Shown here piece after piece: positions 1,223 to 29,118 of a DNA stretch of 32,115 nucleotides. The stretch's first letter is position 1; each line of letters starts with the position of its first letter. This DNA comes from Rickettsiales bacterium (GTDB lineage Bacteria > Bacteroidota > Bacteroidia > Cytophagales > Cyclobacteriaceae): contig PBTY01000022.1 of NCBI GenBank assembly GCA_002729235.1, forward strand, positions 132,259 to 164,373, given 5' to 3'. The position numbers and the translations under genes are program-made. The notes under the pieces were generated by a model. That model was not told the origin of the DNA. It ran no database searches and saw only the letters and a program-made list of their open reading frames with translations.

Positions 1223-1228
1223 ACACTT
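1223..1228. repeat. Target-site repeat ACACTT, left copy
   Basis: ACACTT directly precedes the inverted terminal bases GTCGTTAACC and recurs at 29113-29118 directly after GGTTAATGAC. Tn7 elements make a 5-bp duplication. The sixth base is either a chance match or belongs to one transposon end, so the duplication is ACACT or CACTT. Confidence 0.8.
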
Positions 1229-1308
1229 GTCGTTAACCAAAAAAGATTGAACAAGTGACCAAAAATGTTTGAACGATTTTTATAAGAGTTGACCAAAAAA
1301 GTTTGAAC
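1229..1308. repeat. Left transposon end with three TnsB-site-like motifs
   Basis: The terminal GTCGTTAACC is followed by three same-orientation copies of an 18-bp motif: AACCAAAAAAGATTGAAC (1235-1252), GACCAAAAATGTTTGAAC (1257-1274) and GACCAAAAAAGTTTGAAC (1291-1308). Start-to-start spacing is 22 and 34 bp, looser than the right end, as in Tn7 where the left-end sites are dispersed. The remaining bases to 1501 (about 190) hold no gene; I see only a weak short inverted repeat at 1378-1395 there. Confidence 0.85.
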
Positions 1309-1501
1309 TAAAGAATTTAGCATAAATGACTTCATCGATGCCCAATTAATATCGTAAATGGTTTTTATTCATTCAGTTTAAGTGCGAAAACTTAATGTAA
1401 TTGAGATTTTGACCATAGTTAGTGAGACTGAGATGTCCAAAGCTTAAATGGTAATCATATATAACATTAACTATCATTAAAATAGGTTGTCAAATCCTAA
1501 A

Positions 1502-3832
1502 TCAATACATAACAGTGATTGTTCCCTTAAATTGGTGTTGAGTTAGTACTAGATCAACATATTTAATATAATAAAAGTAGACACCTGGGGGTACTTTATC
1601 TCCGTTCTTCAAATTACCTGTCCAACCAATTGATAAGTTATCTGTCTGATAAATTAATTCACCCGATCTGGTAAATATTCTAGTTTCCAATGCTTCTATA
1701 TTCTCACTTTTAATTGGTGTGAAGATATCATTTATCCCGTCTTGATTTGGTGTGAAAACGTTGGGCAAAATCAAATTAGGAGGACACGAATTTTTAGAAA
1801 GCGAAATTTCATCAAAAGTCCGGCATCCATTTACAGTAACTATCACAGAATAGTATCCCTCTATATCCGTGATATAAATAGGTTCTGTAGATCCATCCTG
1901 CCAAAAGTATGTGGCATCGGGAAATGTGGCATCGATAACATAGCCATTTTCTAAACAGGTTATTCTCTCTGCGCTAAATTCGAACTCTGGATTATGCCTA
2001 TAAGTCACCACCACAGTATCCGACTGTAGACCGCATTGGGGATCAGTTCTTTGCACCCAATATGTTCCAGCTTGCTCGACCAAGTAATGGGAAGAGGTAT
2101 TCCCGTTTTGCCATTGATAGGTTGCCCCATCAATATAAACCTCCAATAGTTGCTGATCACCATCACAAAGGTCCATATCAGAGCCTAAGTTCAATTGATT
2201 ATGATATTCTACCTTAAAGTAATCCAGAATTGAATTGCATGCATTGGTAACCCTTACTGTGTAGTTTCCTCTACTACTGACGTGGTAAAAAGGCGCTGTT
2301 GATCCATCTTGCCATTGATAGGTTGCATTATCATTGGAGGCATCCAGCACTAGAACCTCTCCAGGGCATAGAGTGGTATCATTTCCAAGGTCCAAAGAAA
2401 CCGGATTATCAAATTTAACATGTATCGAATCTCGACGCGTTCCACACAAGTCTGCAACCTCGGCCCAATACAATCCAGTAGATGTCACCTCTAAGCTCTT
2501 TCCGGTGGACCCATCTGACCATAAAAAAGTACCACCAGGTATATCAGGTTCAAGTAAAAACACCATGCCCTGGCACAAAGCCGTATCCTTTCCGAGATCT
2601 AAATCCTTGGTGAACTGAACGTAAATGGAGTCTATCACCGTTGCGCACTCATTGGTCACTTTTACCCAATAAACACCAGTCTCAGAAACAATATACAAAC
2701 TATCAGAAGATTGATCCTGCCATTCAAAAGTAGAATTATCGGAGTTCGCATTTAACGTCAACGTATTTCTTCTACACACGAGTGTATCTGGCCCCAGTGA
2801 AATCTCAGGAAAAGACAAGCAATTAATCTGGAATGTATCTGAAACCACCTCACAACCTCCATTTACAGTGGTTTCTACTATATACTCGCCGGGCTGGGGA
2901 TTGCTTAGAATGGAATCGGTCCCCACGGGAACACCATCTTTATACCATGTATATGAGTTATAAGTGTAGTTTAAGACCAATGAATTATCATAATGTGCAA
3001 TTTCCGGCTTACCTTGAAGCCGATCCATAAAGGCGATGGTATTGACCCAAAAGATATCCTGACCATTCTGGATAGAATCCCCCTGAGTTACGCCACCAAT
3101 ATCTGTGAACACATCAACATCCGCAATAATCAAATCTAAAGTATGGCAATCAAGGTATAGTGTAGGCTTAAAATCAAAATTAGTAGCCAACACTTTTGAA
3201 TGATCCGGTATACTTGAGAAATATCCCTGCAACAAACCGGATTGAAGAACTCCGGCTACAGCTCCAAAAGGTCCATCAAAAAGAGATGTTCCAGCACCTT
3301 CAGTTGTCGGGATTAAAGGACTTGGAACCATTCTAATGAATTCATATTCCCATTTTTCACGCAATATATCGTGATCCCATATCGCAGCTCCATCCTCATA
3401 CAGATAGCCACCAGAGGCAATAATCAATTTTCCACCCCGAAGAGACCAGTTATAAAGTGAATCTATCTCGCCTTGAGTAAAATCATTGATATTGGGATCT
3501 ATCGGACTGAAGGCTCCAAAAAAGAAGATATGATCAATAGGAATGTTGGTGGCTTGTTCCAAACTTCCTGACTCAGCATATTTTTCTATTAGTGCAACAC
3601 TTTTGGGATAGATTCCATTAATACCAAAATTGTCCGGACTCAACAATTTTAGTCGAGAAGTTTGAGCCATTCGAATTCCGTCCAGAGTATATCCATTATC
3701 CCCTGTTCCTATCTCTGCGATTTGACGATCATTTGCAATACTTTGAATATGAATCGATTGACACGCTACACGATAATGTATCAGTGAAAAACAAAAAAAA
3801 GTAAGTAAAAAAAATTCAGTAAAGCGACTCAT
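1502..3832 (-). CDS. Large secreted Ig-repeat protein with gliding-motility-associated (T9SS type B) C-terminal domain
   Basis: This 776-residue protein has a signal peptide (about residues 1-25, ending before QSIHIQ). Residues of about 26-280 form a domain I do not recognise, with Rossmann-like features (LIIASGG, HIFFFGAFSP). Next come five or six Ig/PKD-like repeats of about 65 residues, each opening with L-LG-DT-LC and containing a W-DGST-type strand. An 18-bp exact DNA repeat (2108-2125 and 2309-2326, 67 codons apart) reflects recent repeat duplication. The last about 85 residues (PNVFTPNQDGINDIF ... ending VMY) match the gliding-motility-associated C-terminal sorting domain (CHU_C/TIGR04131 type), which sends proteins through T9SS. 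It starts 16 nt after the O-antigen-ligase-like gene and is probably its operon partner. It is likely a surface adhesin or matrix protein; the ligand is unknown. Confidence 0.85.
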   Translation of the reverse strand: MSRFTEFFLLTFFCFSLIHYRVACQSIHIQSIANDRQIAEIGTGDNGYTLDGIRMAQTSRLKLLSPDNFGINGIYPKSVALIEKYAESGSLEQATNIPIDHIFFFGAFSPIDPNINDFTQGEIDSLYNWSLRGGKLIIASGGYLYEDGAAIWDHDILREKWEYEFIRMVPSPLIPTTEGAGTSLFDGPFGAVAGVLQSGLLQGYFSSIPDHSKVLATNFDFKPTLYLDCHTLDLIIADVDVFTDIGGVTQGDSIQNGQDIFWVNTIAFMDRLQGKPEIAHYDNSLVLNYTYNSYTWYKDGVPVGTDSILSNPQPGEYIVETTVNGGCEVVSDTFQINCLSFPEISLGPDTLVCRRNTLTLNANSDNSTFEWQDQSSDSLYIVSETGVYWVKVTNECATVIDSIYVQFTKDLDLGKDTALCQGMVFLLEPDIPGGTFLWSDGSTGKSLEVTSTGLYWAEVADLCGTRRDSIHVKFDNPVSLDLGNDTTLCPGEVLVLDASNDNATYQWQDGSTAPFYHVSSRGNYTVRVTNACNSILDYFKVEYHNQLNLGSDMDLCDGDQQLLEVYIDGATYQWQNGNTSSHYLVEQAGTYWVQRTDPQCGLQSDTVVVTYRHNPEFEFSAERITCLENGYVIDATFPDATYFWQDGSTEPIYITDIEGYYSVIVTVNGCRTFDEISLSKNSCPPNLILPNVFTPNQDGINDIFTPIKSENIEALETRIFTRSGELIYQTDNLSIGWTGNLKNGDKVPPGVYFYYIKYVDLVLTQHQFKGTITVMY

Positions 3833-3848
3833 TTCAGAAGTGAAAAGT

Positions 3849-5663
3849 TTATTCTACGACCAACTCCTTGCCTTCCAAAATCACAGTTTTTACTACATAT
3901 TTCATTCTATCGGCCTCTATACTCGATACTTTGGGTCTCATGTTTACGATGACATAAGCCATTTTCTTTGCCTTTTCCGTTTGCCCGGTCACATGATACA
4001 GAATCGCCAACCTGAATTTTGGATAGATTAAGTGTGGAATCATGTAAGTGGAAATTAAGAATGCTTTCTCTGCTTGATCAGGATCATTGATGCCCTCATA
4101 AGCTGCTCCCAAAAAATTGTACAGATCGTGATCATTTAGCCGTTGCTCGGTTTCCCTAAAAAGTTCAATACTTCTTGCATACTGGCCTTGTCTATCCAAT
4201 TCCACGGCATAGTTGAAAAGAAAATATTTATTCTGCTTCAATACTGAATATAGTTGGCCATAACCTTCAATTCCTATCTTTGCATTACCCGATCTCAATT
4301 CCAAGAAACTATCCTTCCACTTTCGTTCGGCCATCAGATAATTGCTTCTGTTGTAAATGAAAACACACGATCCAAATACTAGCAGAATCAGAATAAATTT
4401 ATACAGGAAGGTATCCGTTTTGAATTTGAAACGAAAACGGTTGATCTCAATATTTGATGCTATCACTGCTGCAAAAAAGAAATAATTTAATAACGTAGGT
4501 ATGTCATGTAGCGGATATGAAAACAGGCTGGCCACGAGTATTGAAACAAAACCACCCAAACCCGCAATTAATGGCCAATGCTTTTCTTTCAATGATTTTC
4601 GAATACCATGACTGATCAAGAGATAAAAAATGCCAGTAAACGTTAGAAATCCGATCAAGCCCAACTCTGCCCATGTTTGTAAGAACTCATTGAAAGCATA
4701 TTCCACATTGCCTGCTAAGTACCCCAGTTCTGTCTCGTGAGGGTTTTGTTGAAAGTATATCGCCTGATAATCATTGTGCGCTACAGCATATTGATCAAAA
4801 CCCACCCCTAAAAGGGGATGATCCTTGATAATATCCCATGAAATTCCCCAAATAAATAACCTTCCGTCTGCAGAGCCTTTTTTGTATTGATAAAGCTGTA
4901 TAGCTGTGAACACTATGAATATAATAACTGCAGAGGCAAGCGCTACTCGCTTGGTGAAGGTATTGAAAATGCCAAAAAACCATCTGCTGTCTAATCGCAA
5001 AACACACACCAACCCTCCACTTATCGCTGCACTGATCCACGAAGTTCTCGACTCAGTTAACCCTATGGCAACGACTATAATTAAACTAGCCATTACAGCT
5101 GCATATCTTGCCCAGTTAACCCTCGAAAAAAGCACAATAGATAGGGCACAGGGAAAAATAGATGCCAAATGAAAGGCGTACATACCAGGGTTGAGTGCAA
5201 ATCCACTGATTGGGAAAGAGGAATAGTCATTTACTGTCCATCCTCCGAATTGCAAAATACCAATGATAGCAAGTACGGAAGCTACTGCAACAAGGAAGCC
5301 TATTGGGATATTCGGTGCTTGTATAGTGAAATGGAACCTTAATATATAATAAAGTGCTGCGAGGCTAAACCATGTCACTACATAGGTCTCCCCAAATATG
5401 GATGCAGGATTTACTAATACTTTGGAAATCACCCATAGAATCCAAAATGTGATGAGCATATCTGTTGTATTTATGCACAGCTGGCTATGATCACTTTTAT
5501 TAGCGTAAGCCACTCCTAGGGATATTACAAACAATACCCCTATCAAAACCTGTACAAATAGGGCTTTAGGAGTGAGGAATGGATCGACGAATAAGTCAGT
5601 ACGGAGGAGTGAAACTAGAAAAATGCTGCAAGCAAAAAGCCCAACTATTATTTTTTTCATCAT
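3849..5663 (-). CDS. O-antigen ligase/polymerase-like membrane protein with C-terminal TPR region
   Basis: This 604-residue protein has about ten or more hydrophobic segments between residues 1 and 425. They include the Wzy_C-type core: RLFIWGISWDIIKDHPLLGVG, then an extracytoplasmic loop with HETELG, then NEFLQTWAELGLIG. The soluble tail (about 445-604) contains tetratricopeptide-like helices (LFNYAVELDRQGQYARSIELF, LYNFLGAAYEGINDPDQAEKAF). The family transfers or polymerises glycans on the periplasmic face of the inner membrane. Start could be 5663 or the next ATG at 5660. It precedes the Ig-repeat T9SS gene by 16 nt, so glycan attachment to, or co-display with, that secreted protein is a reasonable inference but is not shown. 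No sugar-synthesis genes are in the window. Confidence 0.75.
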   Translation of the reverse strand: MMKKIIVGLFACSIFLVSLLRTDLFVDPFLTPKALFVQVLIGVLFVISLGVAYANKSDHSQLCINTTDMLITFWILWVISKVLVNPASIFGETYVVTWFSLAALYYILRFHFTIQAPNIPIGFLVAVASVLAIIGILQFGGWTVNDYSSFPISGFALNPGMYAFHLASIFPCALSIVLFSRVNWARYAAVMASLIIVVAIGLTESRTSWISAAISGGLVCVLRLDSRWFFGIFNTFTKRVALASAVIIFIVFTAIQLYQYKKGSADGRLFIWGISWDIIKDHPLLGVGFDQYAVAHNDYQAIYFQQNPHETELGYLAGNVEYAFNEFLQTWAELGLIGFLTFTGIFYLLISHGIRKSLKEKHWPLIAGLGGFVSILVASLFSYPLHDIPTLLNYFFFAAVIASNIEINRFRFKFKTDTFLYKFILILLVFGSCVFIYNRSNYLMAERKWKDSFLELRSGNAKIGIEGYGQLYSVLKQNKYFLFNYAVELDRQGQYARSIELFRETEQRLNDHDLYNFLGAAYEGINDPDQAEKAFLISTYMIPHLIYPKFRLAILYHVTGQTEKAKKMAYVIVNMRPKVSSIEADRMKYVVKTVILEGKELVVE

Positions 5664-5725
5664 TGGGTATACAATAAATTATTGAAGTTATTTTTAATGT
5701 CTGTCCACTTACTTTGATTAAAAGC

Positions 5726-5742
5726 ATCCTATCAGATAGGAT
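5726..5742. promoter_or_regulatory. 17-bp inverted repeat upstream of the O-antigen-ligase-like gene
   Basis: ATCCTATC and GATAGGAT are perfect 8-bp arms around one A. It lies 63 bp upstream of the start at 5663 and 19 bp after the stop of the small lipoprotein gene. It could be an operator, or a terminator with a 6-bp stem and 5-nt loop; no clear U-run follows. Confidence 0.4.
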
Positions 5743-5760
5743 ATTACATCCAACTTATCA

Positions 5761-6255
5761 TTACTTATAGCAAGTTTCAATATGTAATTCAACTGTAGTG
5801 AAATGCTCTCTAGGCAATTCGATAAAATTAAAATTATAACCAATTTGCTTACACGCCCCTTCTCTAATCATGTATATGTAGTATATTAATGTTGAGTCCT
5901 TTCGCTCAACATATCGATCATATGTAATTGAACATCCAGAAACTGAGCCATATTTTCCTATATAATAGTAATCTATTAGATTAAACTCCGGTTTAGTATC
6001 GCAATCCCCAAAAATATTTTTGTAATCTGAGGAGTCTTTAATAATTAGAAGATCTTCGGTATTTATGGCATCACAATAAGGAATGTCAATGTAAGAGTAG
6101 TTTACCAAATTCTCTTCGTTGTGGTCAATTGCACATTTATTAAAAACCTGTTCGTCAGATTCACAAGAAATCATAAACACGAATAAAAAAATCAACCAAC
6201 GAAAACTTTTTAAGTCATCGGAATATTTTTCCAATTTTGGTGTTGTTTCCATCAT
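5761..6255 (-). CDS. Small lipoprotein of unknown function
   Basis: This 164-residue protein has a hydrophobic stretch WLIFLFVFMISC followed by acidic residues (ESDEQ), consistent with a lipobox (cysteine about residue 30) and outer-membrane lipidation. The rest contains five further cysteines and no family I recognise. The only in-frame ATGs ahead of the signal region are 6255 and 6252, so translation must begin inside the end of the upstream protease gene (41-nt overlap), unless a non-ATG start is used. The overlap indicates co-transcription and coupling with the serine protease. An inhibitor or chaperone role for the protease is a guess from position only. Confidence 0.6.
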   Translation of the reverse strand: MMETTPKLEKYSDDLKSFRWLIFLFVFMISCESDEQVFNKCAIDHNEENLVNYSYIDIPYCDAINTEDLLIIKDSSDYKNIFGDCDTKPEFNLIDYYYIGKYGSVSGCSITYDRYVERKDSTLIYYIYMIREGACKQIGYNFNFIELPREHFTTVELHIETCYK

Positions 6256-8080
6256 TGTAAGAGTAAATTAAAAGTTTTGAGTTTATCCCGATGTCATCAA
6301 TTTTCATTGTTTTCTCATAATTTCCCGGATCTAACAATTCATAATTGTATGGAGAAGCCAGAATATTGCCTAATTCGTCCAGAATAAGTAGGTTGATTTC
6401 TTTAGTGTCTTTTAATTCAAATTTGAATGTCACCTCTCCAGGTGTGGAAACACCAACTGAAACGTCTGTATCGAACTTCTCCAATCCTATATTGGATCTA
6501 TTTGCTTGTGTTGTTCGAAAGCCGGAGCCCACTGTGCAGGACGCCGTGGTCATTTTAAATGTACTCCCCAATTCAGCTTCAAACCCCGGATTCAGTATTG
6601 TAGTATTACTGCAATTGAAGGTAACGTTAGAGTTTCCAATAATTCTGGACGTAATTGTTAACAGATCGGACGCTTCATATACCCCATCGACATCATCGAT
6701 ATCGGCAGTCAAGTTTAATTCATATGGACAGAAGGACCCATCGAGGCCATTTAAGGTTGTGACAGTTGAACCTGGTGATAGGTAATTGTCTAATGACGAC
6801 CAGTTAAAAGCTAGCTTACCAAAATCGTCACTAACATTACAGCCAGTTGTACCTTGGCTCAATACACCAAGAATTCTTCCATACTCAGAAAATAACGGAG
6901 AACCAGAAGATCCTCCTTCTGTAGTTCCATCATCCCATGTTGTAACATACCACATAGGTGAACTCGGGTTAGGAGTAAAAGTAGCGGCATCATTTTTTGA
7001 AATTTTTTTTATGTCTCCCTTTGGGTGATGAATGCAATAAACTGGTCCTTCATCATAATTGTAGTAAAGTCCCGAACTGATATACTTATTCCTTATGTCC
7101 CACCCATTGTAGAAGGGATCGAAACTATTCGGTACCGGATTACTAAGCTTTAAAAGTAATACATCACCAATGCTATTGTTAAACATTTCCGTACACCCGA
7201 CAATGGATTGAAATGACGGGCTAGATGTTGGATTGCTGCATCCTGGAGCTTCATAATTAAAAATAAATACCCAAGCATCATAAATTGGGTTAGGATCTTG
7301 ACAATGATCTGCTGAAAGTAAATAAGGAGTTCGATCTTGATTAGTATTATTTACTAATGAACCACTACATAGATAACTTCCATCTGATTTCTCCACCAAT
7401 ATCTTAACTACACCTCTTTTATTATCCTGAAAATCATCGCCAATCGGGCTACAATTCACATTATTATTACAACTCAATGATGCTCCAAATGCCAAGGTGG
7501 ATTTGAAATGTGATATTGTGTCGTTAATTGATTCATTAAAGTCTGTCTCAATGGCTTTGTTAATTCTTAACAAACTAATTTTAGCTTCTTCATCAACCCA
7601 TGAAGGTTGAAAATACTCTAGAACAATAGAATTTCCCTCGATAATTCCAGTTGCAAACATTCCAGAGGATTTATTATTTGTGTGATCAAATGATCCAAGG
7701 TATTCAGATTTATTAATTGGATTGAAAACAAAAAATTCCGATCCGGGAGGAAGATAAAATTGGTCGTAGGTTAAATGAATAGACTTAGCTCCAGGAACTT
7801 TAATTCTCAGCTGCCAAATTTTAGATCCATCATCTAGCTCTGTCCATTTTCCAGAGTTATCAATATTCAGATCGACATAGATTGGGTAAGCGAAAAAGTT
7901 ATCCGGAAAATTCTCATCTTTTGAGTGGGTTCTATCTATTACGATTTCAGTTAGCTTATCAGATGAAATATTGTTCAAAACAAGCGATTTAGGTCTTCCT
8001 CCATGGCTAATTTGACTGAATCCATTTGTAATGCTTAATAATAGAATAAAAAGATAGATGACAGATTTAGAGTGAAGCAT
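6215..8080 (-). CDS. Secreted trypsin-like (S1/lysyl-endopeptidase-like) serine protease with C-terminal sorting-type domain
   Basis: This 621-residue protein has a signal peptide at about 1-22 (ending GFSQ). The catalytic triad of a chymotrypsin-fold protease is visible: H259 in LLSADHC, D306 in GDVLLLKL and S394 in GGSSGSPLF. The long prodomain (about 23-200) and the CNPT/CSP cysteine pattern resemble bacterial lysyl endopeptidases. Residues of about 455-520 (DGVYEASDLLTI ... PGFEAELGSTF) resemble the beta-strand stack domain found ahead of T9SS tails. The final about 80 residues (VTFKFELKDTKEINLLILD ... KIGKIFR) look like a divergent T9SS type A sorting domain. It overlaps the downstream lipoprotein gene. 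The role is probably extracellular protein degradation; substrate preference is not established. Confidence 0.85.
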   Translation of the reverse strand: MLHSKSVIYLFILLLSITNGFSQISHGGRPKSLVLNNISSDKLTEIVIDRTHSKDENFPDNFFAYPIYVDLNIDNSGKWTELDDGSKIWQLRIKVPGAKSIHLTYDQFYLPPGSEFFVFNPINKSEYLGSFDHTNNKSSGMFATGIIEGNSIVLEYFQPSWVDEEAKISLLRINKAIETDFNESINDTISHFKSTLAFGASLSCNNNVNCSPIGDDFQDNKRGVVKILVEKSDGSYLCSGSLVNNTNQDRTPYLLSADHCQDPNPIYDAWVFIFNYEAPGCSNPTSSPSFQSIVGCTEMFNNSIGDVLLLKLSNPVPNSFDPFYNGWDIRNKYISSGLYYNYDEGPVYCIHHPKGDIKKISKNDAATFTPNPSSPMWYVTTWDDGTTEGGSSGSPLFSEYGRILGVLSQGTTGCNVSDDFGKLAFNWSSLDNYLSPGSTVTTLNGLDGSFCPYELNLTADIDDVDGVYEASDLLTITSRIIGNSNVTFNCSNTTILNPGFEAELGSTFKMTTASCTVGSGFRTTQANRSNIGLEKFDTDVSVGVSTPGEVTFKFELKDTKEINLLILDELGNILASPYNYELLDPGNYEKTMKIDDIGINSKLLIYSYNDGNNTKIGKIFR

Positions 8081-8220
8081 TGCTATTTGTAATTAAAGTC
8101 AATTCAATAATTTTCATGAAAACAACATATTAAAGAAAGAGTCTCCTATGTCACTTTTTATTGTCACAACATCAATCTTATAAAGCAGCTAATGATTTGG
8201 AACATTATTGCATAGAATCA

Positions 8221-8289
8221 TTAATCTGTCAAAATCATTCTTTTTTGTCCTATTTCCTGCCTATCAGCAATCAAAATACGCAACGATTT
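8221..8289 (-). pseudogene. Relic of a T9SS type A sorting domain (last 22 codons of a lost gene)
   Basis: On the minus strand this supposedly empty stretch reads, in one frame ending at a TAA, LIADRQEIGQKRMILTD. The intact T9SS protein at 10477..11529 ends LIADGKEVGTKKMILTE. Eleven of these 17 residues are identical and most others are conservative changes, and the stop codon is at the equivalent position. The frame is closed upstream by a TAA at 8290-8292, so only the C-terminal tail survives. It lies between the beta-barrel gene and the serine protease gene. It is best explained as the remains of a deleted or rearranged paralogue of the S74/T9SS gene. DNA-level similarity (CTGTCAAAATCATT in both) supports this. 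Confidence 0.75.
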
Positions 8290-8298
8290 TTAGATTGA

Positions 8299-8928: not shown

Positions 8929-8932
8929 AAAA

Positions 8933-20085: not shown

Positions 20086-20397
20086 TCAACAAGCGTATAC
20101 TCACACCCTAAAATAGAGCCCACTTGCTGTTGGGTTGTTGTGACTTTATGAATCAGGTATTTGAGGATTACGTTTTTGATCAAGTTGTGTTTTCTGGACA
20201 GTCAAAAGCATAAATAGAAACCTTCATACTTGGATATCTATCAATTTTCATTACGATTAATAGTAGCACGAAGAATAGTGATAAAAAGACACTAGTCTCA
20301 TATCTGGGTTTAATGTTAAATTAATGCTCAATCATTTAATTTAGACCGGTTCAATTCGTAGGTAATAAATTCCTTCTTAAAAAAAACCTTGCACAAT
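20086..20397. other. 312-bp gap without a clear gene
   Basis: I see no convincing gene or RNA here. A 21-codon frame at 20148-20213 is too short to support. Confidence 0.5.
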
Positions 20398-21199: not shown

Positions 21200-22765
21200 T
21201 TAAGTGAGTGCATTGATCAGGTTTTTTGCAATCCGAGTTTTACTAATATTAGAGAGAGATTTGGCATCTAACCCATCTACGTTTTGAAGATTTTTAGGAT
21301 GTCTAATAGTGTCAGCAGTACACGTGTGACTTAAAAATTCCTTGTTCCACTTTCCGCCACTTTTGGCAAGATCATTTAGTAGGATGTGAAAAAAGTCCTT
21401 CTGTTTAATTTTTAAATCTTTAAAAATGAGGGTCGACACGAACTTGTCATCTGAACTGTCGATTTCGATTAGATTTATTTCGGGGGTGGATTGAAAGGAT
21501 ACTAAAATTCCAAGTCGTTCTTGATCATTTATCTTTTTGAAGGTTGATTTCAAGTCTTTACTAAATGTGAGAACCTTATAAGAAAATCCTACATTCAGTA
21601 TTTTACTAACAAGAGTTATAGCATTACAGAAGTGTTGTAAGCCTTTAGGAATTTCTGTAAAATCAAATGAAGGTTCATCCTCAACATCTATAATTTTAAG
21701 TTCATGTGCATCGCCTGACTTATCCACTTTATCCATGGATAGACTTATATCATTCAACTTGAATTCAGTGTACACTTTATTTCCTCCCGGACTAGAGTCA
21801 GAACCATATTTTAATTTTTCTCTAATAATCTCGAATTGATCATTGATCCTAAATCCAGGCTTTTTACTGGTGATTGAAGCCTTCTTTTTATTCGATGGAT
21901 TCGATTCATAGTCAAATTTGATGTCCTTTGGGATGTCAACATCTCTTTTACCAGGTTTTGACTTTTTACCTTCGCTTATTGGACTTTCAATCAGTGAGGG
22001 ATGTTTGATGATAACTTGATCAAAAGGTAATTCCTTTTGAAAATTTATAGCACTAATGCTCGTAATCAAATCAAAGTTCAAATAGCTCAAAGTGTTGGCC
22101 TTTAAGTCTATAGAGTCGTAAGGGGGAGTGAGAAATTTGAAGTTATTGGTCTTATCTACCGTGTGAGCCTGGATCTCCTTCCAATACCTTCTTAAACTTT
22201 CATCATATAGTAAAGAAACCATACTTGAGATAAATTCATTGTCCTGAACAAGTCTGGAGTTTAGGAGATTGTTGAGTTCGATCGTTAAAGTTCTCTTGTT
22301 ATTCTCAGAAGTAATTGCTTGTCCATCAATGAAAATATCAAGCATATCATGCTCGAATACATAATGACAAATACCTTCATTATACCCAATAAACTGTCTA
22401 AACAGCTCATATAGGAAAATTACTGTTTCCCTTCCATTAACAGTAAAAGAATAAACAAGGGTCTCACTATGAAGTGCATGCCTATTATCAAGGTAATAGG
22501 TTTTTTCTGGTAACTGAATTAAAGTCTTTATAGTCCCAGATTTGAAATTGGTGATCTGGTACTCTGTGATCTTTGTATTTGTTGTTCCTTGAGTGATATC
22601 ATCACGAATTTCAATTGCAATGGGTAGTAGGGGGTTTTGTTTAATGGGGTAATCGTTAGACTGTACGAAGTAAGGCTTCTTGTCCAAATCAATTTCGAAA
22701 ACCTTGAGATACCAGCGTTTTGATTTTTTGTAAGCATATGGAACAGAAATGATCTCTTTTCTCAT
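21200..22765 (-). CDS. tnsE: TnsE-like target-selection protein
   Basis: This 521-residue protein is the fifth gene of the tns operon, 6 nt after tnsD; E. coli TnsE is 538 residues and has the same position. Similarity is weak but visible in the C-terminal half. An IEIDSSD strand (433-439) corresponds to a LEVDASD-like strand in TnsE, and a KWNKEF ... RHPKNL region (HPKN 489-492) corresponds to the NW ... NHPKGL region of Tn7 TnsE. The centre (about 265-345) is a low-complexity basic linker (KKSKPGKRD, KKKASITSKK). TnsE steers Tn7 to replicating DNA, preferentially conjugal plasmids, through the sliding clamp and 3' recessed ends. The homology call rests on position, length and remembered motifs, so a profile search is needed to confirm it. 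Confidence 0.78.
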   Translation of the reverse strand: MRKEIISVPYAYKKSKRWYLKVFEIDLDKKPYFVQSNDYPIKQNPLLPIAIEIRDDITQGTTNTKITEYQITNFKSGTIKTLIQLPEKTYYLDNRHALHSETLVYSFTVNGRETVIFLYELFRQFIGYNEGICHYVFEHDMLDIFIDGQAITSENNKRTLTIELNNLLNSRLVQDNEFISSMVSLLYDESLRRYWKEIQAHTVDKTNNFKFLTPPYDSIDLKANTLSYLNFDLITSISAINFQKELPFDQVIIKHPSLIESPISEGKKSKPGKRDVDIPKDIKFDYESNPSNKKKASITSKKPGFRINDQFEIIREKLKYGSDSSPGGNKVYTEFKLNDISLSMDKVDKSGDAHELKIIDVEDEPSFDFTEIPKGLQHFCNAITLVSKILNVGFSYKVLTFSKDLKSTFKKINDQERLGILVSFQSTPEINLIEIDSSDDKFVSTLIFKDLKIKQKDFFHILLNDLAKSGGKWNKEFLSHTCTADTIRHPKNLQNVDGLDAKSLSNISKTRIAKNLINALT

Positions 22766-22771
22766 GAATGA

Positions 22772-24595
22772 TTACGCGATTTCGATAGTTTGATTTTTTA
22801 TGGTGTCTAATCCACGGGTTAAAAGATGATTGACTAGACTTTCAATTTCAAAGTCAATATACTCCTTTCTTATTCCAGCATGTCGGAGAAGTTTCCATTG
22901 CTTTACCGGTACTTCTTGTTTGGAAAGTGTTTTAAATGAGAGTACAAGCCTTCTTTTTCTATGATTCTGTAATGATTCAGAGTAATCGTTTAAAAATGCC
23001 TTACATTTTGGCATTTTAGCCATATTCTGATTGAATAAGGTTTCCGATTTGCTGAGCCTAAGCAAGAGACTTTTGGATCTCCGCTTCTTCGGGAAATTCA
23101 ATTTTAAGTTGTTGTATGATTCTTTTAGTTTGAAAAGAATCTGGTGATCCCGGTTATTCCAGTCAACTTTAAATAATCTTGTCGGACTGTTTGGGGTGTA
23201 TTTTTGAGAGAGAAGCCACACTTTGTCGTGTCTATATAAGTACGCATATTCCGTAGGCTTTATTCGGCGGATTTGAGTTATAGAAAATTCCTGGTTGGCC
23301 TTAATAAGTTTAAGCCATTTTTGTTTTGCTTTGGAGATTTCTTTTTCGAGATTATTGTCTCTTGGATTTACCTTCCAATAATTCTTAATTGTTTTGGGAT
23401 CAGCGTTTAACTTATTGGCAATTGCTCTAAGACTTAGTTTTTGTTTTATAAGCACTTTAAGCTCATTCTCCCATTCTTTACCATAACTCTTAACTCTTAT
23501 AAAATATTGACCTTTTTCTTCTAAATAAGACAAAGTGTATTGATAACCACAGGTGCAGCTCACATATGCGACATCTCTTTTGGACTTTGGATCCTTCTTA
23601 ATCTTATGTGTTGTGTTAGCTTTCCCATAATTCATGCATACTGGATTTCTACATGGATAGTTTTTATATTGAGAGGGTATTGGTTTAGTTCGATTAGATC
23701 TTAAATACCCAAAGAAAGCCTCAATTAGCATATGCCTAACCGGATCAAACGCTTTACGATGTTTCCTCAAAATTGCCTTCAACCAGCAGTTTGAATCAAT
23801 AGAACTGACTTCTGATCTGAAATGTATCAGTGTTGATTTAGCATAGAAATTTTCGAATTCATTATATACTCTGGACCAGTCAATAGAATCTGGACCTTTA
23901 TTAAAGCCCAATTGCTTAATTTCCTTATTGTAAATGTAAGGCTCATCAAAAGGCCAGATACTGAGAGGTTTTAGAACAAGACTTTCCAATCTCGATGTGA
24001 GGCTGATTATTTCTTCATTGAGGAATGGAATAATTTTTTTGAAGCATAAACTTGATTGGTAGTCATGCAAATCAATGAACAAATGCTTGTTAATTGATTC
24101 ATAGTTGAACTCAACTTGATTAAGATGTATTTTATGTTTCGTGCAAATACTAACTGATGGAATCTGATGAGTCAATTTTAAGTAGGGTTCTTCATATAAT
24201 TCGATTTGTTCGTTCAGACAAATTGGACAAAACCTAGGTGTGGACAAGGGAGGAAAAGGTCCTGTGACAATTCCACACCTGGTATGAATATCTCCTGACT
24301 TGGTGAGCATTGAATTCCATACTTTTCTACGTCTATTTTCTGGGATGAATCGAGTATAATAATGGAACAGCGTATATCTATCAATTAAATCTACTGCAGT
24401 TTGATCTTTAATATTAATGTGTTTGGCCAGGTGATTTATTCCACTTGGAAGGTCAAGCGTTGAACAAATAGTAGTTCTTTCAAAAAATCTTTTGAGGAGC
24501 TGTTTTGGTCCTTTGGTGCCCAGGTAACTTATATTTCTAGCAATAGTGCTATAGAGAATTTCATCTGGAAAAGGTTTAGACCAATATGACTTCAT
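22772..24595 (-). CDS. tnsD: TnsD/TniQ-family attTn7 recognition protein
   Basis: This 607-residue protein has an N-terminal TniQ domain (PFPDEILYSTIARNISYLG) with the zinc finger C123-P-I-C126 ... HQIPSVSIC151TKH154, matching the CCCH finger of Tn7 TnsD almost residue for residue. A second zinc-ribbon-like set follows (C315, C320, C347, C349), then a helix-turn-helix (about 388-407, SLRAIANKLNADPKTIKNYW) and a long basic C-terminus. It is about 100 residues longer than E. coli TnsD. TnsD binds the end of the glmS coding sequence and recruits TnsC. The insertion found beside glmS in this same window is direct evidence that this protein, or a close ancestor, uses that site. One nucleotide separates it from tnsC. 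Confidence 0.92.
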   Translation of the reverse strand: MKSYWSKPFPDEILYSTIARNISYLGTKGPKQLLKRFFERTTICSTLDLPSGINHLAKHINIKDQTAVDLIDRYTLFHYYTRFIPENRRRKVWNSMLTKSGDIHTRCGIVTGPFPPLSTPRFCPICLNEQIELYEEPYLKLTHQIPSVSICTKHKIHLNQVEFNYESINKHLFIDLHDYQSSLCFKKIIPFLNEEIISLTSRLESLVLKPLSIWPFDEPYIYNKEIKQLGFNKGPDSIDWSRVYNEFENFYAKSTLIHFRSEVSSIDSNCWLKAILRKHRKAFDPVRHMLIEAFFGYLRSNRTKPIPSQYKNYPCRNPVCMNYGKANTTHKIKKDPKSKRDVAYVSCTCGYQYTLSYLEEKGQYFIRVKSYGKEWENELKVLIKQKLSLRAIANKLNADPKTIKNYWKVNPRDNNLEKEISKAKQKWLKLIKANQEFSITQIRRIKPTEYAYLYRHDKVWLLSQKYTPNSPTRLFKVDWNNRDHQILFKLKESYNNLKLNFPKKRRSKSLLLRLSKSETLFNQNMAKMPKCKAFLNDYSESLQNHRKRRLVLSFKTLSKQEVPVKQWKLLRHAGIRKEYIDFEIESLVNHLLTRGLDTIKNQTIEIA

Positions 24596-24596
24596 T

Positions 24597-26114
24597 CTAA
24601 TTCATGAATTCAGAAAGGTTAACGATATCTCCTTGTTCTAAAAGTTCTTTATGCAACTCTTCTTGATTAGATGCTTTTATTTTTCTCAAGTCGCCATCAA
24701 TGTAATTCGGGGTAAGTTTTCTCTTGACAGTTGACTCTGAGGAATTTGCAGGATTAGAGCGATACTTTTTAATTATCGAATAAGCAATTTCATTATCACT
24801 TAATGAGGGATTTTCTAAAATGGATGATTCTAGAAGTGGGAAGTAGAAGTTTTTGGGGATATTGAAATCGTCTAATTCATTCTGAATATTTACTTGCCTG
24901 TAGTTGCTTTTGAAATCACTAACATCATCAGGCAACAACATGTCACTGGCTTTACTAATGTTAAGATTCCTATCTCTTATGTTTTTAAACATCGGCTCAT
25001 CTAGCCACATCATTTCAGCAACAACTTTGTTAATGATTTCAATAGTTATTGATTTCTTATTAATCGAAAAAGCCCATTTTTGGGAAGAGACAAATAGTTT
25101 TATGGCTCGATCAATAATTCCTTGTGAGTGAAAATAGAAGATATCAGCCCAATTAATATTTGTGTTAGCTAATTCATCAGTGTATTGATACTTGAATAAA
25201 TGTTTGATGATCATTGACCATTCAACATCATGTGGTAGTTTATCCCACTTCAAGCCAGCGCCTGCAGTAAATCTTCTACGTAATCTCTGTTTTTCAGAAA
25301 ATAGCTCTAGTGCTTCGGGCGTCCCTACAATAAGTATTGGTATGTGCAAAGTATTGTCAAGGTGTAAAAAGAAGTTCAACATTGTATCTGAACCACCACT
25401 TTTGGTTTGGTTAAGGTGTTGAATTTCATCCACAATAAGAGTTCCTACACGGTGTGCAATCACGAGCTTTGACATTGCTATTACACGATCACTTGCATTA
25501 TCTCTTGGTATGCAATATTCTTGCTCATAGCATGTCCCCAAGATATTGTCTACTTCAATGAAGAAATATCTGCATAGATCTTTTAGAGATCCGTCTTTAG
25601 GGCATTCAATTTTGATGATTGGAATTTGAATAAATGTTTCTACAGTGGTAGTATGTCTGATCGCTTTTTTGAATAGTGCACAAGCTACGTTTATGCTGGT
25701 TGTTTTGCCAATCCCTGAGATACCGACCAAAAGAGAACTCTTAGAGAAGGTAGATTGGTAGTTGTCCTTGAAAAGGGTTTTGAAGTCCTGTCTTAGATTT
25801 GACTTTATTGGATTCTCTATTGGGTTTCGAAGCTTGTAGCTTGCGTTGATTGATGAATGGATTAGTTCATAAACCTGATATAATCGCCTATTAGGAACTA
25901 AAAATTTATCAATCATTTCATCCAGAAAATGAGGCCGAATATCTCTTTCTATTTCTAATATCTCGGCTCGAGTACGTGGTGTTTGATCAATTAATATTTT
26001 AAAGAACTCTTGTGGACTCAGAAAATCAAATAGGTTTTCTAATAAAGGGTTTCCGATATGAGATGGATCCTTTGGTGTCCTTTGAATCGCATCAACAATT
26101 TGATCACTATTCAT
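24597..26114 (-). CDS. tnsC: TnsC AAA+ ATPase, transposition regulator
   Basis: This 505-residue protein has Walker A at 131-139 (GISGIGKTT) and Walker B at 226-230 (LIVDE, followed by IQHL), then an arginine-rich sensor region (RLRRRFTAG). E. coli TnsC is 555 residues. TnsC forms ATP-dependent rings on target DNA, links the target selectors (TnsD or TnsE) to the TnsAB transposase and gives target immunity. The flanking N- and C-terminal extensions fit the TnsA/TnsB and TnsD contact regions. It overlaps the end of tnsB by 8 nt and is followed by tnsD after 1 nt, so the operon is tightly coupled. Confidence 0.93.
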   Translation of the reverse strand: MNSDQIVDAIQRTPKDPSHIGNPLLENLFDFLSPQEFFKILIDQTPRTRAEILEIERDIRPHFLDEMIDKFLVPNRRLYQVYELIHSSINASYKLRNPIENPIKSNLRQDFKTLFKDNYQSTFSKSSLLVGISGIGKTTSINVACALFKKAIRHTTTVETFIQIPIIKIECPKDGSLKDLCRYFFIEVDNILGTCYEQEYCIPRDNASDRVIAMSKLVIAHRVGTLIVDEIQHLNQTKSGGSDTMLNFFLHLDNTLHIPILIVGTPEALELFSEKQRLRRRFTAGAGLKWDKLPHDVEWSMIIKHLFKYQYTDELANTNINWADIFYFHSQGIIDRAIKLFVSSQKWAFSINKKSITIEIINKVVAEMMWLDEPMFKNIRDRNLNISKASDMLLPDDVSDFKSNYRQVNIQNELDDFNIPKNFYFPLLESSILENPSLSDNEIAYSIIKKYRSNPANSSESTVKRKLTPNYIDGDLRKIKASNQEELHKELLEQGDIVNLSEFMN

Positions 26115-28194
26115 CGCCCATCAATTGATCAATAAAATCTAAGAAATCAGGCTGGTCAAGATTAGTGGATGTCATCTTAATTACTTTGGTTTCTTTCTTG
26201 TCGTTGTCAGGGTTTGCAGCGTCCATCCTTCTTTGGCGTTCCAACTCTTTGTCTTGTTCTCTATTTTTCTTTACTGTTTTTGATTGAGGTGAAGAGCTGA
26301 TCTTCTTCGCCTTCTTTTTTCTAATATTTTCTGAGGACTCCAAGAAATGAATTGCTGCTAAGGTTTCAGAGTCTTTTGCCTCAGATATTTTAGATTTTTG
26401 AGTTGTAATAAATGACTTTATATCCCAAATGGTTTTGTTCTTGAATAAGCCGCTTTTCTCCAGATTTAAGTCACATGGGATAATCTCTTTTTCGTTAATA
26501 ATGAAGAGTTGATTAAGATTGTAGGGCTCGTATGAGGCATCTAACTTTGTGGTTTTCCTTTGGGTTTTTAGTTGAACATCTCTCAAAGGATGATCTTTTG
26601 GTAGTTTATACCACACATTGTTAAACTTAATCCCGTTCTTTGTAAGGTTCACGTTCTCTCTAGGAAGCATCAGAGTCCGCAAATTCCTGATTTTATTTGA
26701 TCTAAGTTTTCCAGATTTATTTAGTATTCCCCAATTGAATACTTCAGAGGGTGTCGGGACATATAAACCATCTTTTGGCATTTCATGGTCTAAAGGGTAG
26801 TTTTTTAATAATCTGCTGTTGTTATGTCTTACAATAGCCATTACAAGAATTGCAAGATATTCTCTCATGGTAAAGGTACCATAGGCTCGAGCTTTGGTGG
26901 CGCCTCTTCGACCGTCATCTTTATCCTTAATTCCAATATTTTCTTCTGACCCCCTAAGTTCTGTGTGGACTAAATCTATAAGTTTCTCAACCAACCCCTT
27001 TAATTCTGGTCTATACGACTCTTTATTCTCTATTTGGATCCCGAGACTTTGAACTAAGTTGTTTGAATTTCGGCTTATAAATTCTGGTCCTCTATCAGTA
27101 ACGATGCTATTAGGAATATATTCGCAAGGCCAGTCCTCAGATGATAGTTCGAAGCTTTCAATACTGTCAAGAAGAGATTTTTTGAAGAATTCGTCTTTAT
27201 TACTAAAACTACAATACAGAGCTTCCATTGCTTGCACGTAGGAAGGACTCTCAAGGGTGACATGAACGCCCAAGACCATTGCGCTATAAACATCACAAAC
27301 AAAATACACTGTTGGACAGCCAATAGGAGACTCATCTATTTCGGAGATTAATTCTACATCAGATGGAGTTGAATCAATTTGAGATATACCAGGGCCGTTA
27401 ACTGAACTGTAAGAGGAGCCTTCGTTAATTCTAAAGTCCTTATCAAAGTTAATATCTCCGTGTTTGGCTTTCAGTCTGGCTTCTGAACTAAGGTCTAATT
27501 CACCCCAGTAAATAAACTGTTTAAGAGAAGGCACCTTAGATAGATTTTTGCTTTTCCACTCTTTAGGGAAATTCTTTCTTATAAAATTGTTGTAAGCGGT
27601 CCTCTTTGAAGCTTGTTTGACTTTTAGGTACCATCTTTTATATCCTTTTTTTATCTTTAACTTGGTCGCATTATCAAGAATAATAGACTTTCGATTATCA
27701 GTTCTTTGTCTCCCGTTTATTAGAGTAAGTTGCTTTTGTTTTCCTTTACCACCGGAGTTATGGTAATTAGAAATCAAGCTCAATTTTGTCTTTCCGTTTA
27801 CCCAGTACTTAATTGCCAACCTTCTCACTGTTTGTCTTGAGCAATTATGTAGTTCTCCTAATTCTCTACACTTCTTATTAAAATGTTTTCTATCAAAAAC
27901 TATTGGCTCTTCGTTGATAAAATCAGTAATTAATGCCCAATCATTCTCAAGTTTGATTTTGGTTTTTGGTGTCAAATTATCAATTGGTACATAATCATCA
28001 GTATAGTTTAAATGGACTACTTCTGATCTTTTTAACAGAGCCCTAAATTCAGATAATTCCAATTCTTCGGGAAAACAGTTGTCATTGTACCTTGTTTCGA
28101 TCCATATTAGTAAATCAATTTCTTGATCGATGTAGAGGATCCGATAATGTTTATTGTTATGCGACCAAATTTGATTTATCAATATATCTAACAT
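26107..28194 (-). CDS. tnsB: TnsB DDE transposase
   Basis: This 695-residue protein is close to the 702 of E. coli TnsB. The retroviral-integrase-type core carries D274 (GISQIDST), D367 (IVTDRGPEF) and E403 (KGLVEKL), in line with D273/D361/E396 of Tn7. The N-terminal half holds the helical DNA-binding domains (HNCSRQTVRRLAIKYW), which should bind the repeated 18-bp sites at both ends. The C-terminus is lysine-rich (KKKAKKISSSPQSK) and ends with a short acidic tail (FLDFIDQLMGDE), comparable to the TnsC-contacting tail of TnsB. The start lies inside tnsA (38-nt overlap). Confidence 0.94.
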   Translation of the reverse strand: MLDILINQIWSHNNKHYRILYIDQEIDLLIWIETRYNDNCFPEELELSEFRALLKRSEVVHLNYTDDYVPIDNLTPKTKIKLENDWALITDFINEEPIVFDRKHFNKKCRELGELHNCSRQTVRRLAIKYWVNGKTKLSLISNYHNSGGKGKQKQLTLINGRQRTDNRKSIILDNATKLKIKKGYKRWYLKVKQASKRTAYNNFIRKNFPKEWKSKNLSKVPSLKQFIYWGELDLSSEARLKAKHGDINFDKDFRINEGSSYSSVNGPGISQIDSTPSDVELISEIDESPIGCPTVYFVCDVYSAMVLGVHVTLESPSYVQAMEALYCSFSNKDEFFKKSLLDSIESFELSSEDWPCEYIPNSIVTDRGPEFISRNSNNLVQSLGIQIENKESYRPELKGLVEKLIDLVHTELRGSEENIGIKDKDDGRRGATKARAYGTFTMREYLAILVMAIVRHNNSRLLKNYPLDHEMPKDGLYVPTPSEVFNWGILNKSGKLRSNKIRNLRTLMLPRENVNLTKNGIKFNNVWYKLPKDHPLRDVQLKTQRKTTKLDASYEPYNLNQLFIINEKEIIPCDLNLEKSGLFKNKTIWDIKSFITTQKSKISEAKDSETLAAIHFLESSENIRKKKAKKISSSPQSKTVKKNREQDKELERQRRMDAANPDNDKKETKVIKMTSTNLDQPDFLDFIDQLMGDE

Positions 28195-29005
28195 TATCAG
28201 ATAGTTTAATTGAACTTAACAGAACTTCATTTGAGAAAATATTCATTCTCAAATCAGCATTTATTATTCTCCGGGCTATTAATATTTTAAAGATTCTTAA
28301 AGACATACCTTCTTCAAAGTTCAGCTTTTTATCAGCGGTTTTCATAAATGAAACTATCCCTAATTGACCAAAATCTTGGAATGACGTGTGAAGGAAATTA
28401 TATAACAACTGAATAGGTTCTATTGAGATGTCACCACTCACGAATAAGTTAATCGATTCATAAATATCTCGGTAGTTTGATAACCAAATAGGTTCATGAG
28501 GAATGTCTAATTCAGTCATTATATGCCATTCTATACCTTTTCTTTGCCAATAGATTTTTTCTATTTGGAATAACTCAAGCTGGCGTGAATCAATATTGCC
28601 TAATGGCTTGAAAGTAACTATTCTAGATGAGCCTGATTTAAAATCAATCCAGAAATCGCTGGTAAGAATGTGCTGCGAGTTTTTAAATTTTGGGTATTTG
28701 ATTCCAAGTTCCTCGGAAATTGAGTGTGCAAGATCAGTATCTAAGAGTGGATACTGTTCTCGGATATCTGATATTTGAGGATTTAAGTCAAAAACGATAA
28801 ACAGAAGCTTCTCGTAGTTTGAAAGAAGGTGATGAGTTCTTTTGGTTTTGAGTCCTTTCAGTTTAAACCCATTACCTAGGCTTTTCTCTCTTCTTTTAGA
28901 GGAATCGTGACTTTCTCCAACTTTATACCAGGGGATATAGTCTTTGCCTGAACCTAACCCCCTTTTTTCTGTGATTTTTCGCTGATAACTGACGTGTCTT
29001 CCCAC
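28157..29005 (-). CDS. tnsA: TnsA endonuclease subunit of the transposase
   Basis: This protein has 282 residues (E. coli TnsA: 273). The restriction-enzyme-like core residues are E65 (SNYEKLLF), D117 (LTSDFWIDF) and K133 (VTFKPL), against E63/D114/K132 of Tn7. The QYPLLD segment and a GRHVSYQRK-type N-terminus also fit. TnsA cuts the 5' ends of the transposon, making cut-and-paste rather than replicative transposition possible. The GTG start is fixed because an in-frame TAA directly precedes it. It is the first gene of the tns operon, 107 nt from the transposon end nearest glmS. Confidence 0.93.
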   Translation of the reverse strand: MGRHVSYQRKITEKRGLGSGKDYIPWYKVGESHDSSKRREKSLGNGFKLKGLKTKRTHHLLSNYEKLLFIVFDLNPQISDIREQYPLLDTDLAHSISEELGIKYPKFKNSQHILTSDFWIDFKSGSSRIVTFKPLGNIDSRQLELFQIEKIYWQRKGIEWHIMTELDIPHEPIWLSNYRDIYESINLFVSGDISIEPIQLLYNFLHTSFQDFGQLGIVSFMKTADKKLNFEEGMSLRIFKILIARRIINADLRMNIFSNEVLLSSIKLSDNVRYIDKSNLVA

Positions 29006-29026
29006 TTATCCCGTAATAGTTTGTTT

Positions 29027-29054
29027 AATATAGGGATAAATTAATTCGGTTCAA
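29027..29054 (-). promoter_or_regulatory. Candidate tnsA promoter overlapping the innermost TnsB-site motif
   Basis: On the minus strand TTGAAC (29054-29049) and TATATT (29032-29027) are 16 nt apart, 22 nt before the tnsA GTG. The upstream box lies inside the innermost right-end repeat, so TnsB binding could repress its own operon. Bacteroidota promoters differ from the sigma-70 model, so the box assignment is tentative. Confidence 0.35.
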
Positions 29055-29112
29055 ACTTTTTTGGTCATGTTCAAATTTTTTTGGTCACGTTCAAACTTTT
29101 TTGGTTAATGAC
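29049..29112. repeat. Right transposon end with three evenly phased TnsB-site-like motifs
   Basis: Three direct copies of GTTCAAACTTTTTTGGTC (29049-29066, 29069-29086 with one change, 29089-29106) repeat exactly every 20 bp, followed by the terminal GGTTAATGAC. They are inverted relative to the left-end copies. The dense right end against the dispersed left end is the Tn7 arrangement. Confidence 0.9.
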
Positions 29113-29118
29113 ACACTT
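29113..29118. repeat. Target-site repeat ACACTT, right copy
   Basis: It directly follows GGTTAATGAC and matches 1223-1228. Eighteen nucleotides separate it from the last base of the glmS stop codon, close to the usual Tn7 insertion point. Confidence 0.8.

Follow-up and report, generated by a model that had tools for sequence, protein, structure and literature searches.

We found that the window, a stretch of 32,115 nucleotides from a Bacteroidota genome, contains a 27.9-kb Tn7 element (positions 1228 to 29113) that adjoins glmS, has three TnsB-type sites per end, and encodes a co-directional tnsA-E set. The element is intact-looking, with tnsA-E and both ends present, and we put the probability that it represents a complete, cut-and-paste Tn7 transposon at about 92%. 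Its predicted mode of working is that of Tn7, and the novelty lies in the host lineage, Bacteroidota. A preliminary description had proposed that a Tn7-type element, complete with both ends, lies beside glmS in a Bacteroidota genome, which the end sites, genes, and position confirmed. Its claim of a full co-directional tnsABCDE set was borne out as well, with all genes on the minus strand (Table 1) and with TnsE settled only with the help of relatives. It knew of no characterized five-gene element from this phylum, and our literature search, with most subscription journals and supplements outside its scope, found no published account of a Bacteroidota element with the complete tnsABCDE set. 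Of the two named records retrieved with the window's TnsD, one was a MAG of Marinoscillum sp., a genus of Cytophagales, Reichenbachiellaceae.

Table 1. Features of the element and its glmS-side flank (window coordinates).
Feature	Position	Strand	Remarks
Left ACACTT copy	1223-1228	.	duplication CACT (1224-1227) or ACACT (1223-1227); with symmetric tips, 1228 is the terminal T
Left end	1228-1308	+	tip TGTCGTTAACC; TnsB-type sites 1236-1252, 1258-1274, 1292-1308; spacing 22, 34
Cargo block 1	1502-13714	-	eight ORFs
Cargo block 2	14062-17747	+	N6-adenine methylase / Eco57I-type, type IIG-like, 996 aa; overlapping 231-aa ORF
Cargo NucS_C nuclease-domain protein	17810-19375	-	
Cargo 151-aa ORF	20389-20844	+	without family match
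tnsE	21200-22765	-	521 aa; putative second target selector; PF18623
tnsD	22772-24595	-	607 aa; TniQ domain, CCCH zinc motif, TnsD C-terminal domain
tnsC	24597-26114	-	505 aa; AAA+ ATPase, Walker A GISGIGKT
tnsB	26107-28194	-	695 aa; DDE transposase
tnsA	28157-29005	-	282 aa; endonuclease
Right end	29049-29113	-	three tandem TnsB-type sites (29049-29065, 29069-29085, 29089-29105), 20-bp spacing; tip GGTTAATGACA
Right ACACTT copy	29113-29118	.	base 29113 is the terminal A if tips symmetric
glmS	29137-30975	-	
glmS 3' end	29137-29175	-	stop codon plus 36 bp that is the TnsD-binding site in E. coli

All five tns reading frames are open. TnsA matched PF08722 and PF08721 above cut-off and, when aligned with Tn7, kept the active-site residues E65, D117, and K133, which we take to correspond to Tn7 positions 63, 114, and 132; Q130 of Tn7 TnsA is T131 in the window. 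For TnsB, the Pfam rve match alone fell below cut-off, and a search of the PDB returned Tn7 TnsB (E = 6.3e-61), with the alignment to Tn7 yielding the DDE residues D274, D367, and E403 at what are presumably the Tn7 catalytic positions. TnsC matched Tn7 TnsC in the PDB (E = 8e-49), while TnsD matched PF06527 and PF15978 and displayed a zinc motif (C123, C126, C151, H154) at positions that we assume to be those of the Tn7 zinc motif. Beyond these genes, the element carries ~20 kb of cargo, consisting of secreted or surface-type proteins, a type IIG-like restriction-modification gene, and a NucS-like nuclease. The first cargo block includes a protein with a CHU_C (T9SS-type) tail, a Wzy_C O-antigen-ligase-like protein, an M12-type peptidase, an S74-chaperone protein, and an F5/8-type C protein, as well as a weak Trypsin_2 match below cut-off; the 231-aa ORF of the second block had no family match at E 0.001.

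Another three complete tnsABCDE operons, as well as one divided between two contigs, occur in the same family, all at glmS (individual elements are denoted by their genome). These related elements reside in different genomes, with different neighbors and cargo; one of them, whose insertion at glmS splits the adjacent ridA, carries a ridA of its own. Trees of TnsB and TnsC, which had been suggested earlier along with TnsA, placed the five elements together in both cases, firmly for TnsB (100/99) and less so for TnsC (91/86). No further intact tnsE was found in phylum and class samples of 390 to 395 genomes, and a broken tnsE follows glmS in one other genome; the count from the Pfam TnsE_C search over 395 genomes is a lower bound, as this search missed the window's own genome. 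Both ends could be mapped at glmS for two of the five elements. The 74 kb read for G711 yielded no left end, and the pattern search in G004 gave only the right end. In G003, the right junction lies inside an unrelated gene, which is no more than a hint of TnsE-directed insertion.

The ends of the element were recognized by a 17-mer, ACCAAAAAAGTTTGAAC, that occurs at six places in the window with 0 to 1 mismatches, three per end and in opposite orientation, with no further place in the window at up to 4 mismatches. In 10 Markov-generated sequences, such places numbered on average 0.2 at 3 mismatches and 2.3 at 4, with none at 2 or fewer. By analogy with Tn7, these sites would be bound by TnsB, and the left-end sites of G003 and G770 have the same 22-23/34 spacing. 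The 18-bp end motif of the preliminary description is exact at 1291-1308 and 29049-29066. Its borders, given "to the base," held in part: the ends were located, but they are fixed only to within one base because ACACTT overlaps the tips. Likewise, the flanking ACACTT repeats are present at both borders, but the hexamer takes in the terminal bases of the element itself. If the tips are symmetric (TGTC...GACA, 1228...29113), ACACT and CACTT remain as flanks, and the overlap of repeats and tips thus leaves a duplication of either 4 bp (CACT), with neither tip shortened, or 5 bp (ACACT), with one tip base lost. Since ACACTT occurs 21 times in the window versus 18 expected, it is weak by itself, and its value lies in its position. 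The TGT/ACA tips are present in the window element, and G770, with tips TGG/CCA, displays the same ambiguity (GTCA or AGTCA). Whole tips in these two elements favor a 4-bp duplication, whereas the G003 and G004 distances of 19 and 24 bp to the glmS stop, together with Tn7 itself, favor 5 bp.

On the target side, the 36-bp glmS region is identical to that of E. coli at 29 of 36 positions, and all 7 differences fall at third codon positions. The TnsD-binding site of E. coli lies in this glmS 3' end (PMC2918618), which is by analogy a putative TnsD-binding site in the host. The right end faces glmS at 23 bp from its stop codon (24 bp if the tip lost a base). This distance varies among the elements (23, 23, 24, and 26 bp), being 23 bp in G770, 24 bp in G004, and 26 bp in G711, where the sequence was counted by eye; the left cut in G003 lies at 19 bp. 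Joining the window flanks restores a hairpin just past glmS that was equally stable in only 2 of 300 shuffles, and the joined G770 flanks restore one likewise (0 of 300 shuffles). The earlier proposal of a comparison with an empty site was carried out in part, and no genome among those examined had the same two flanks without the element. The glmS-side regions of six genomes (G001, G002, G003, G005, G008, and G013) contained no homologue of a left-flank gene in the stretches read; in G002, a homologue of one such gene is located ~10 kb away from glmS and is separated from it by other genes. A search for the left-flank gene of G770 in 10 genomes of its genus gave 13 loci, none of them with glmS.

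The window's TnsE was marginal on its own, such that relatives were needed to settle the call. Its PF18623 score of 27.6 bits clears the cut-off of 26.7 by 0.9, relatives scored 33.4, 35.9, and 26.4 bits (G003 misses the cut-off by 0.3), and the single protein had no PDB match. One could suppose that the fifth gene encodes an accessory protein that has diverged and plays a different role, not a working TnsE, in line with its identity of only 14 to 16% to gammaproteobacterial TnsE, the near-cut-off score, the missing single-protein match, and a failed fold prediction (AlphaFold2 with three sequences; pLDDT 31, pTM 0.21). A first profile comparison was weak (31%). However, a five-sequence profile aligned end to end with gammaproteobacterial TnsE (hhalign; 98.1%, E = 1.2e-13), covering residues 14-496 in line with TnsE, and a PDB search with the profile returned three sequences, all of them TnsE. 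Residues common to TnsE proteins are found in a stretch around IEIDSSD..STL and in a later W...HP, and in each of the four complete operons tnsE comes after tnsD. We consider the accessory-protein alternative quite unlikely: on sequence grounds, the fifth gene is predicted to be a real tnsE. A plasmid collection yielded no TnsE match, and none of 44 pattern matches in viral contigs was confirmed.

Comparison with two relatives revealed that nucleotide identity jumps from <50% to ~90% near the tnsC/tnsD border, with the change point no more than about ten bases away from the tnsC stop. Such a jump indicates that selectors were exchanged between diverged cores. Strong selection on the first half of TnsD might mimic this pattern, as its TniQ domain makes contact with TnsC and is likely constrained, but selection accounts poorly for so abrupt a change, or for the four-fold degenerate sites, where the window and G003 are 37% identical in tnsABC (71/191), 77% in tnsD codons 1-275 (63/82), and 23% in codons 290-607 (10/43). 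This renders selection without DNA exchange very improbable. We rather favor, with some reservation, the view that the target-selection genes form a portable cassette: the first half of tnsD and tnsE would have moved at the tnsC/tnsD border between elements with TnsABC 45 to 48% identical, the DNA-binding half of TnsD would have been exchanged separately (codon ~275-290), and an element's own ridA may offset homing damage. If the cassette moved between such cores, then the same TniQ domain has to function with two different TnsCs.

Two further alternatives concern the element as a whole. It could be a Tn7 remnant, an old and immobile arrival that has stayed next to glmS as a genomic island, as might be suspected from flanks without a clean 5-bp duplication, from the single tnsD copy in the genome, and from the failure to find an empty site with both flanks among the genomes examined. 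Against this, the five frames are open with catalytic residues kept, both element ends are present, and related elements occur in different genomes with different neighbors and cargo, so that we regard a remnant as unlikely. A misassembly, with the window joined from two elements or two genomic places, seems barely credible. Its genome (G000) is a draft of 116 contigs, with contamination estimated at 4.64%, but the same sites recur at both ends in opposite orientation, the end distances are close to those of the relatives, and the flanks join into a terminator-like hairpin.

For a complete, mobile Tn7 transposon, Tn7 biochemistry suggests how DNA binding, excision, and the TnsE route would proceed. 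TnsB would bind the three sites at each end and join the 3' ends, TnsA would cut the 5' ends, and TnsC would relay the target choice. TnsD would bind the conserved glmS 3' end and direct insertion to a point ~19 to 24 bp beyond the stop codon, the right end facing glmS, whereas TnsE, as the second selector, should direct the element to DNA undergoing lagging-strand synthesis, e.g., an incoming plasmid. These data place a Tn7 that has all five genes and both target pathways in a Bacteroidota lineage; our searches found no description of such an element there. The data also supply five related elements that share one type of site and offer site-specific insertion machinery native to Bacteroidota. 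The sharp exchange border furthermore provides natural chimeras with which one can ask what surfaces of TnsC are required by a TniQ domain, which bears on the design of Tn7- and CAST-type insertion tools.

Among known systems, Type I-B1 CASTs share with the window TniQ/TnsD-type homing to glmS (PMC11406308), but the window has TnsE and no cas match. We rejected a CAST assignment, as no cas genes were found among the scanned ORFs and no repeat array was present: a Pfam scan of 20 window proteins (17 in the element; short antisense ORFs left out) gave no cas genes, the only CRISPR-related matches listed by PADLOC for 10 proteins were TniQ models hit by TnsD, and no direct repeats of ≥20 bp within 120 bp occurred in 1223-29118. 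The Tn6022 family, reported in PMC10293859 as the other TnsE-carrying group, is described there as having TniQ plus TnsF and a distant TnsE and as targeting comM via TnsF; its tnsE is located close to the left end, on the opposite strand. A Tn6022-like assignment was rejected, since the window's site is glmS and tnsE, not a TnsF gene, comes after tnsD. A Tn7 relative on the E. coli plasmid FAM21805 (NZ_KY416992) has a complete tnsABCDE like the window, with TnsA-C 26 to 30% identical, but its host is gammaproteobacterial and in the TnsB tree it clusters with Tn7 rather than with the window. Tn7 itself (tnsABCDE copy on plasmid R721, NC_002525) is separate from the window group, and the window's TnsA-C and TnsD pieces are 27 to 31% identical to it, with TnsE at 16%. 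The window TnsD is about 100 residues longer, and the element's flanking duplication is 4 or 5 bp, compared with the clean 5 bp of Tn7. Tn7 ends are multi-site, with three sites on the left and four on the right as given in PMC8649781, compared with the three right-end sites found here. Like the window element, Tn7 inserts downstream of glmS (PMC2918618), has its genes in A-B-C-D-E order on one strand, and combines a heteromeric TnsA+TnsB transposase with the selectors TnsD and TnsE.

The 6.55-Mb draft genome G000, in which the window is C23:132259-164373, carries, beside glmS, the five co-directional tns genes that the preliminary description had named, as seen by ORF, Pfam and NCBIfam scans. 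Neighbouring genes overlap or almost touch, a packing as in an operon. Among solved proteins, the best matches of TnsB and TnsC were Tn7's own, and in alignments with Tn7 the residues of the active site line up in both TnsA and TnsB, as do the zinc ligands in TnsD. The fifth gene, claimed earlier as tnsE, is marginal alone and firm by profile with its relatives. Its own score against PF18623 was 27.6 bits (cut-off 26.7), compared with 26.4 bits, under the cut-off, for the copy in G003 and 33.4 and 35.9 bits for those in G711 and G770, all three being genomes of the same family. The single protein had no match among PDB sequences, and an early profile comparison built on few sequences was weak (probability 31%). 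A profile of five TnsE sequences from Bacteroidota, of which one is truncated, matched three gammaproteobacterial TnsE sequences at 98.1% (E = 1.2e-13, 459 columns), and against the PDB (E up to 1) it gave three matches, all TnsE (5d17, 0.0012; 5d16, 0.0025; 9d5l, 0.0099). On these sequence comparisons, the gene is a predicted tnsE.

Features of the element and of related loci (positions are in the window unless a locus or genome is named)
Feature	Location	Strand	Remark
tnsA, tnsB, tnsC, tnsD, fifth gene	29005 down to 21200	minus	ORFs, Pfam, NCBIfam
glmS	29137-30975		adjoins tns genes
Cargo, eight ORFs	1502-13714		domains of secretion or surface type in several
Cargo, type IIG-like methylase gene			overlapping small ORF
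Cargo, NucS_C protein			
Tips	1228; 29113		TGT-N8-AAAAAA; reversed copy
ACACTT copies	1223-1228; 29113-29118		
Hairpin against left end	1196-1227		with glmS side, terminator-like structure at insertion point
Identity borders, near tnsC stop and at ~tnsD codon 275-290	23770-24600; L007 4648-5500; L006 1605-2450		window compared with two relatives' loci
G003, right flank of element	L007 1-116; L057; L063		in contig C62, ~92,432
G003, element ridA	L007 8552-8929	minus	complete
G003, host ridA	L037 (C72), from about base 340		split point after codon 6
G711, first cargo	L074 13958-16765		type I restriction R-like protein
G770, cargo between right end and tnsA	36788-45604	joined reverse strand	
G090, frame-broken tnsE	L066 10212-13502		immediately after glmS
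G021, distant Tn7-like operon	L050-L051		two tandem TnsD-type genes

Complete tnsABCDE operons were found in the window, G003, G711 and G770. In a further genome of the family, G004, the genes lie on two contigs, with tnsAB beside glmS and tnsCDE elsewhere (tnsE cut at the contig end), and these would form one operon. All five elements touch glmS, G003 via its left junction and the others via the right end. In trees of 14 rows each, TnsB groups the five elements with support of 100/99; the same grouping in TnsC (91/86) falls below the tool's starred level, and there the long-branched G021 protein joins the group at 97/97. G021, of the same family, carries the distant operon listed in the table, with no TnsE found in the profile searches of the samples. 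TnsC was present in 4 of 39 genomes (G000, G003, G004 and, as the distant form, G021). Our own TnsE profile matched the window genome itself in samples of the phylum (1/395), the class (1/395) and the order (3/390, with G711 and G770); these counts do not include every carrier, the known carriers G003 and G004 not being among the matches. The Pfam TnsE_C search of 395 phylum genomes, which missed the window's own genome, had two matches, G090 and G101, both of one genus; that in G101 covers 50 positions in a 59-aa frame. G090 (2.2 Mb, same GTDB phylum, presumably Chlorobia by its gene content) has no other tns genes around its broken tnsE in the 39 kb read, and this copy looks like the trace of an old Tn7. 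In named records, TnsD relatives occur in the MAGs Marinoscillum sp. MSM7 (79% identity; Bacteroidota, Cytophagales, Reichenbachiellaceae) and Bacteroidia bacterium (65%).

The genes of these operons do not share one degree of relatedness. TnsA, TnsB and TnsC of the window are 45-48% identical to those of G003 or G004 (TnsC, 47-48% to G003 and 27% to Tn7), whereas TnsD reaches 65% and 79%, and TnsE 71% and 77% (over 397 residues), respectively. Measured in 60-codon steps, nucleotide identity to the relatives rose from 0.44-0.47 over the last two steps of tnsC to 0.90-0.92 in the opening step of tnsD, the change falling within ~10 aligned bases of the tnsC stop. Four-fold degenerate sites identical with G003 numbered 18/37 in tnsA, 27/86 in tnsB, 26/68 in tnsC, 63/82 in tnsD codons 1-275, 10/43 in codons 290-607 and 60/105 in tnsE. 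TnsABC of G003 and G004 are 88-94% identical to each other, while the second half of TnsD in G004 resembles that of the window and not that of G003; accordingly, at least two exchanges are required. As to mechanism, we infer that elements which came together at glmS swapped their selectors through homologous exchange.

Both element ends are present, as described before: one 17-mer occurs six times, three at each end in opposite orientation, and at no further place in the window with up to four mismatches allowed. Its spacing at the left end is 22 and 34 bp, at the right end 20 and 20 bp, as in G003; G770 has 23 and 34, then 20 and 20, and the right-end spacing recurs in G004 and G711. The ACACTT flanks are likewise real, but the claim that they are the target repeat, with borders exact to the base, does not stand in full, since the last base of the left copy and the first base of the right copy overlap the tips if these are symmetric. 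The duplication then reads as CACT, of 4 bp; a 5-bp duplication as in Tn7 would be ACACT, with one base missing from the right tip. G770 shows the same ambiguity: whole tips, TGGGG/CCCCA, leave GTCA as its duplication, and a tip shortened by one base gives AGTCA. The distances from the glmS stop to the G004 right junction (24 bp) and to the G003 left cut (19 bp) fit a 5-bp duplication. In E. coli attTn7 (PMC2918618) the duplication spans -2 to +2, and TnsD's site, +23 to +58, is the final 36 bp of glmS; the 3′ end of the window glmS is identical to E. coli at 29 of these 36 bp, every difference being at a third codon position. When joined, the element's flanks in the window form a strong hairpin just past glmS (-28.5 kcal/mol; 2/300 shuffles as low), as do those of G770 (-24.5 kcal/mol; 0/300), one base short at the join. 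A true empty site carrying both flanks was not found in the genomes compared. G002 is the nearest species by glmS (protein 98% identical), and there ~10 kb that include other genes separate glmS from a homologue of the window's START-domain gene.

In G003, contig C95 (57,954 bp) consists of one whole element of 57,764 bp with flanks of 77 and 113 bp. The glmS/ridA site forms the left flank, and contig C72 is an assembly of this site without the element. The right flank falls within an open frame of 268 residues on contig C62, which likewise has no element there; by eye, the end of this frame resembles a secretion-type tail. These junctions would be explained by a mixed population with one copy of the element at each of the two sites, which would also fit TnsE-type insertion. 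A chimeric C95 in a low-coverage MAG (cov 1.9 in the record title) would explain them too. Because ridA begins one base past the glmS stop, an insertion 19 bp past the stop follows ridA codon 6. The ridA carried by the element (88% identical to the host's in protein, 79% in DNA) is possibly a replacement for the gene thus split; the window has no ridA, and there the joined flanks of the element give the hairpin instead.

Among the literature matches listed, none described an element of this sort from Bacteroidota. Benler 2021 (PMC8649781) names Bacteroidetes hosts in clade 3 and places tnsE in clades 1 and 3, with which some tnsE in Bacteroidetes would be compatible. Faure 2023 (PMC10293859) reports tnsE from Tn6022 as well as from elements closely related to E. 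coli Tn7, and a 2024 review (PMC11406308) calls TnsE almost universal in glmS-targeting elements. Given this distribution, a TnsE-bearing element at glmS is, as a kind, to be expected, and what is new to us is the host lineage together with the exchange of selectors.
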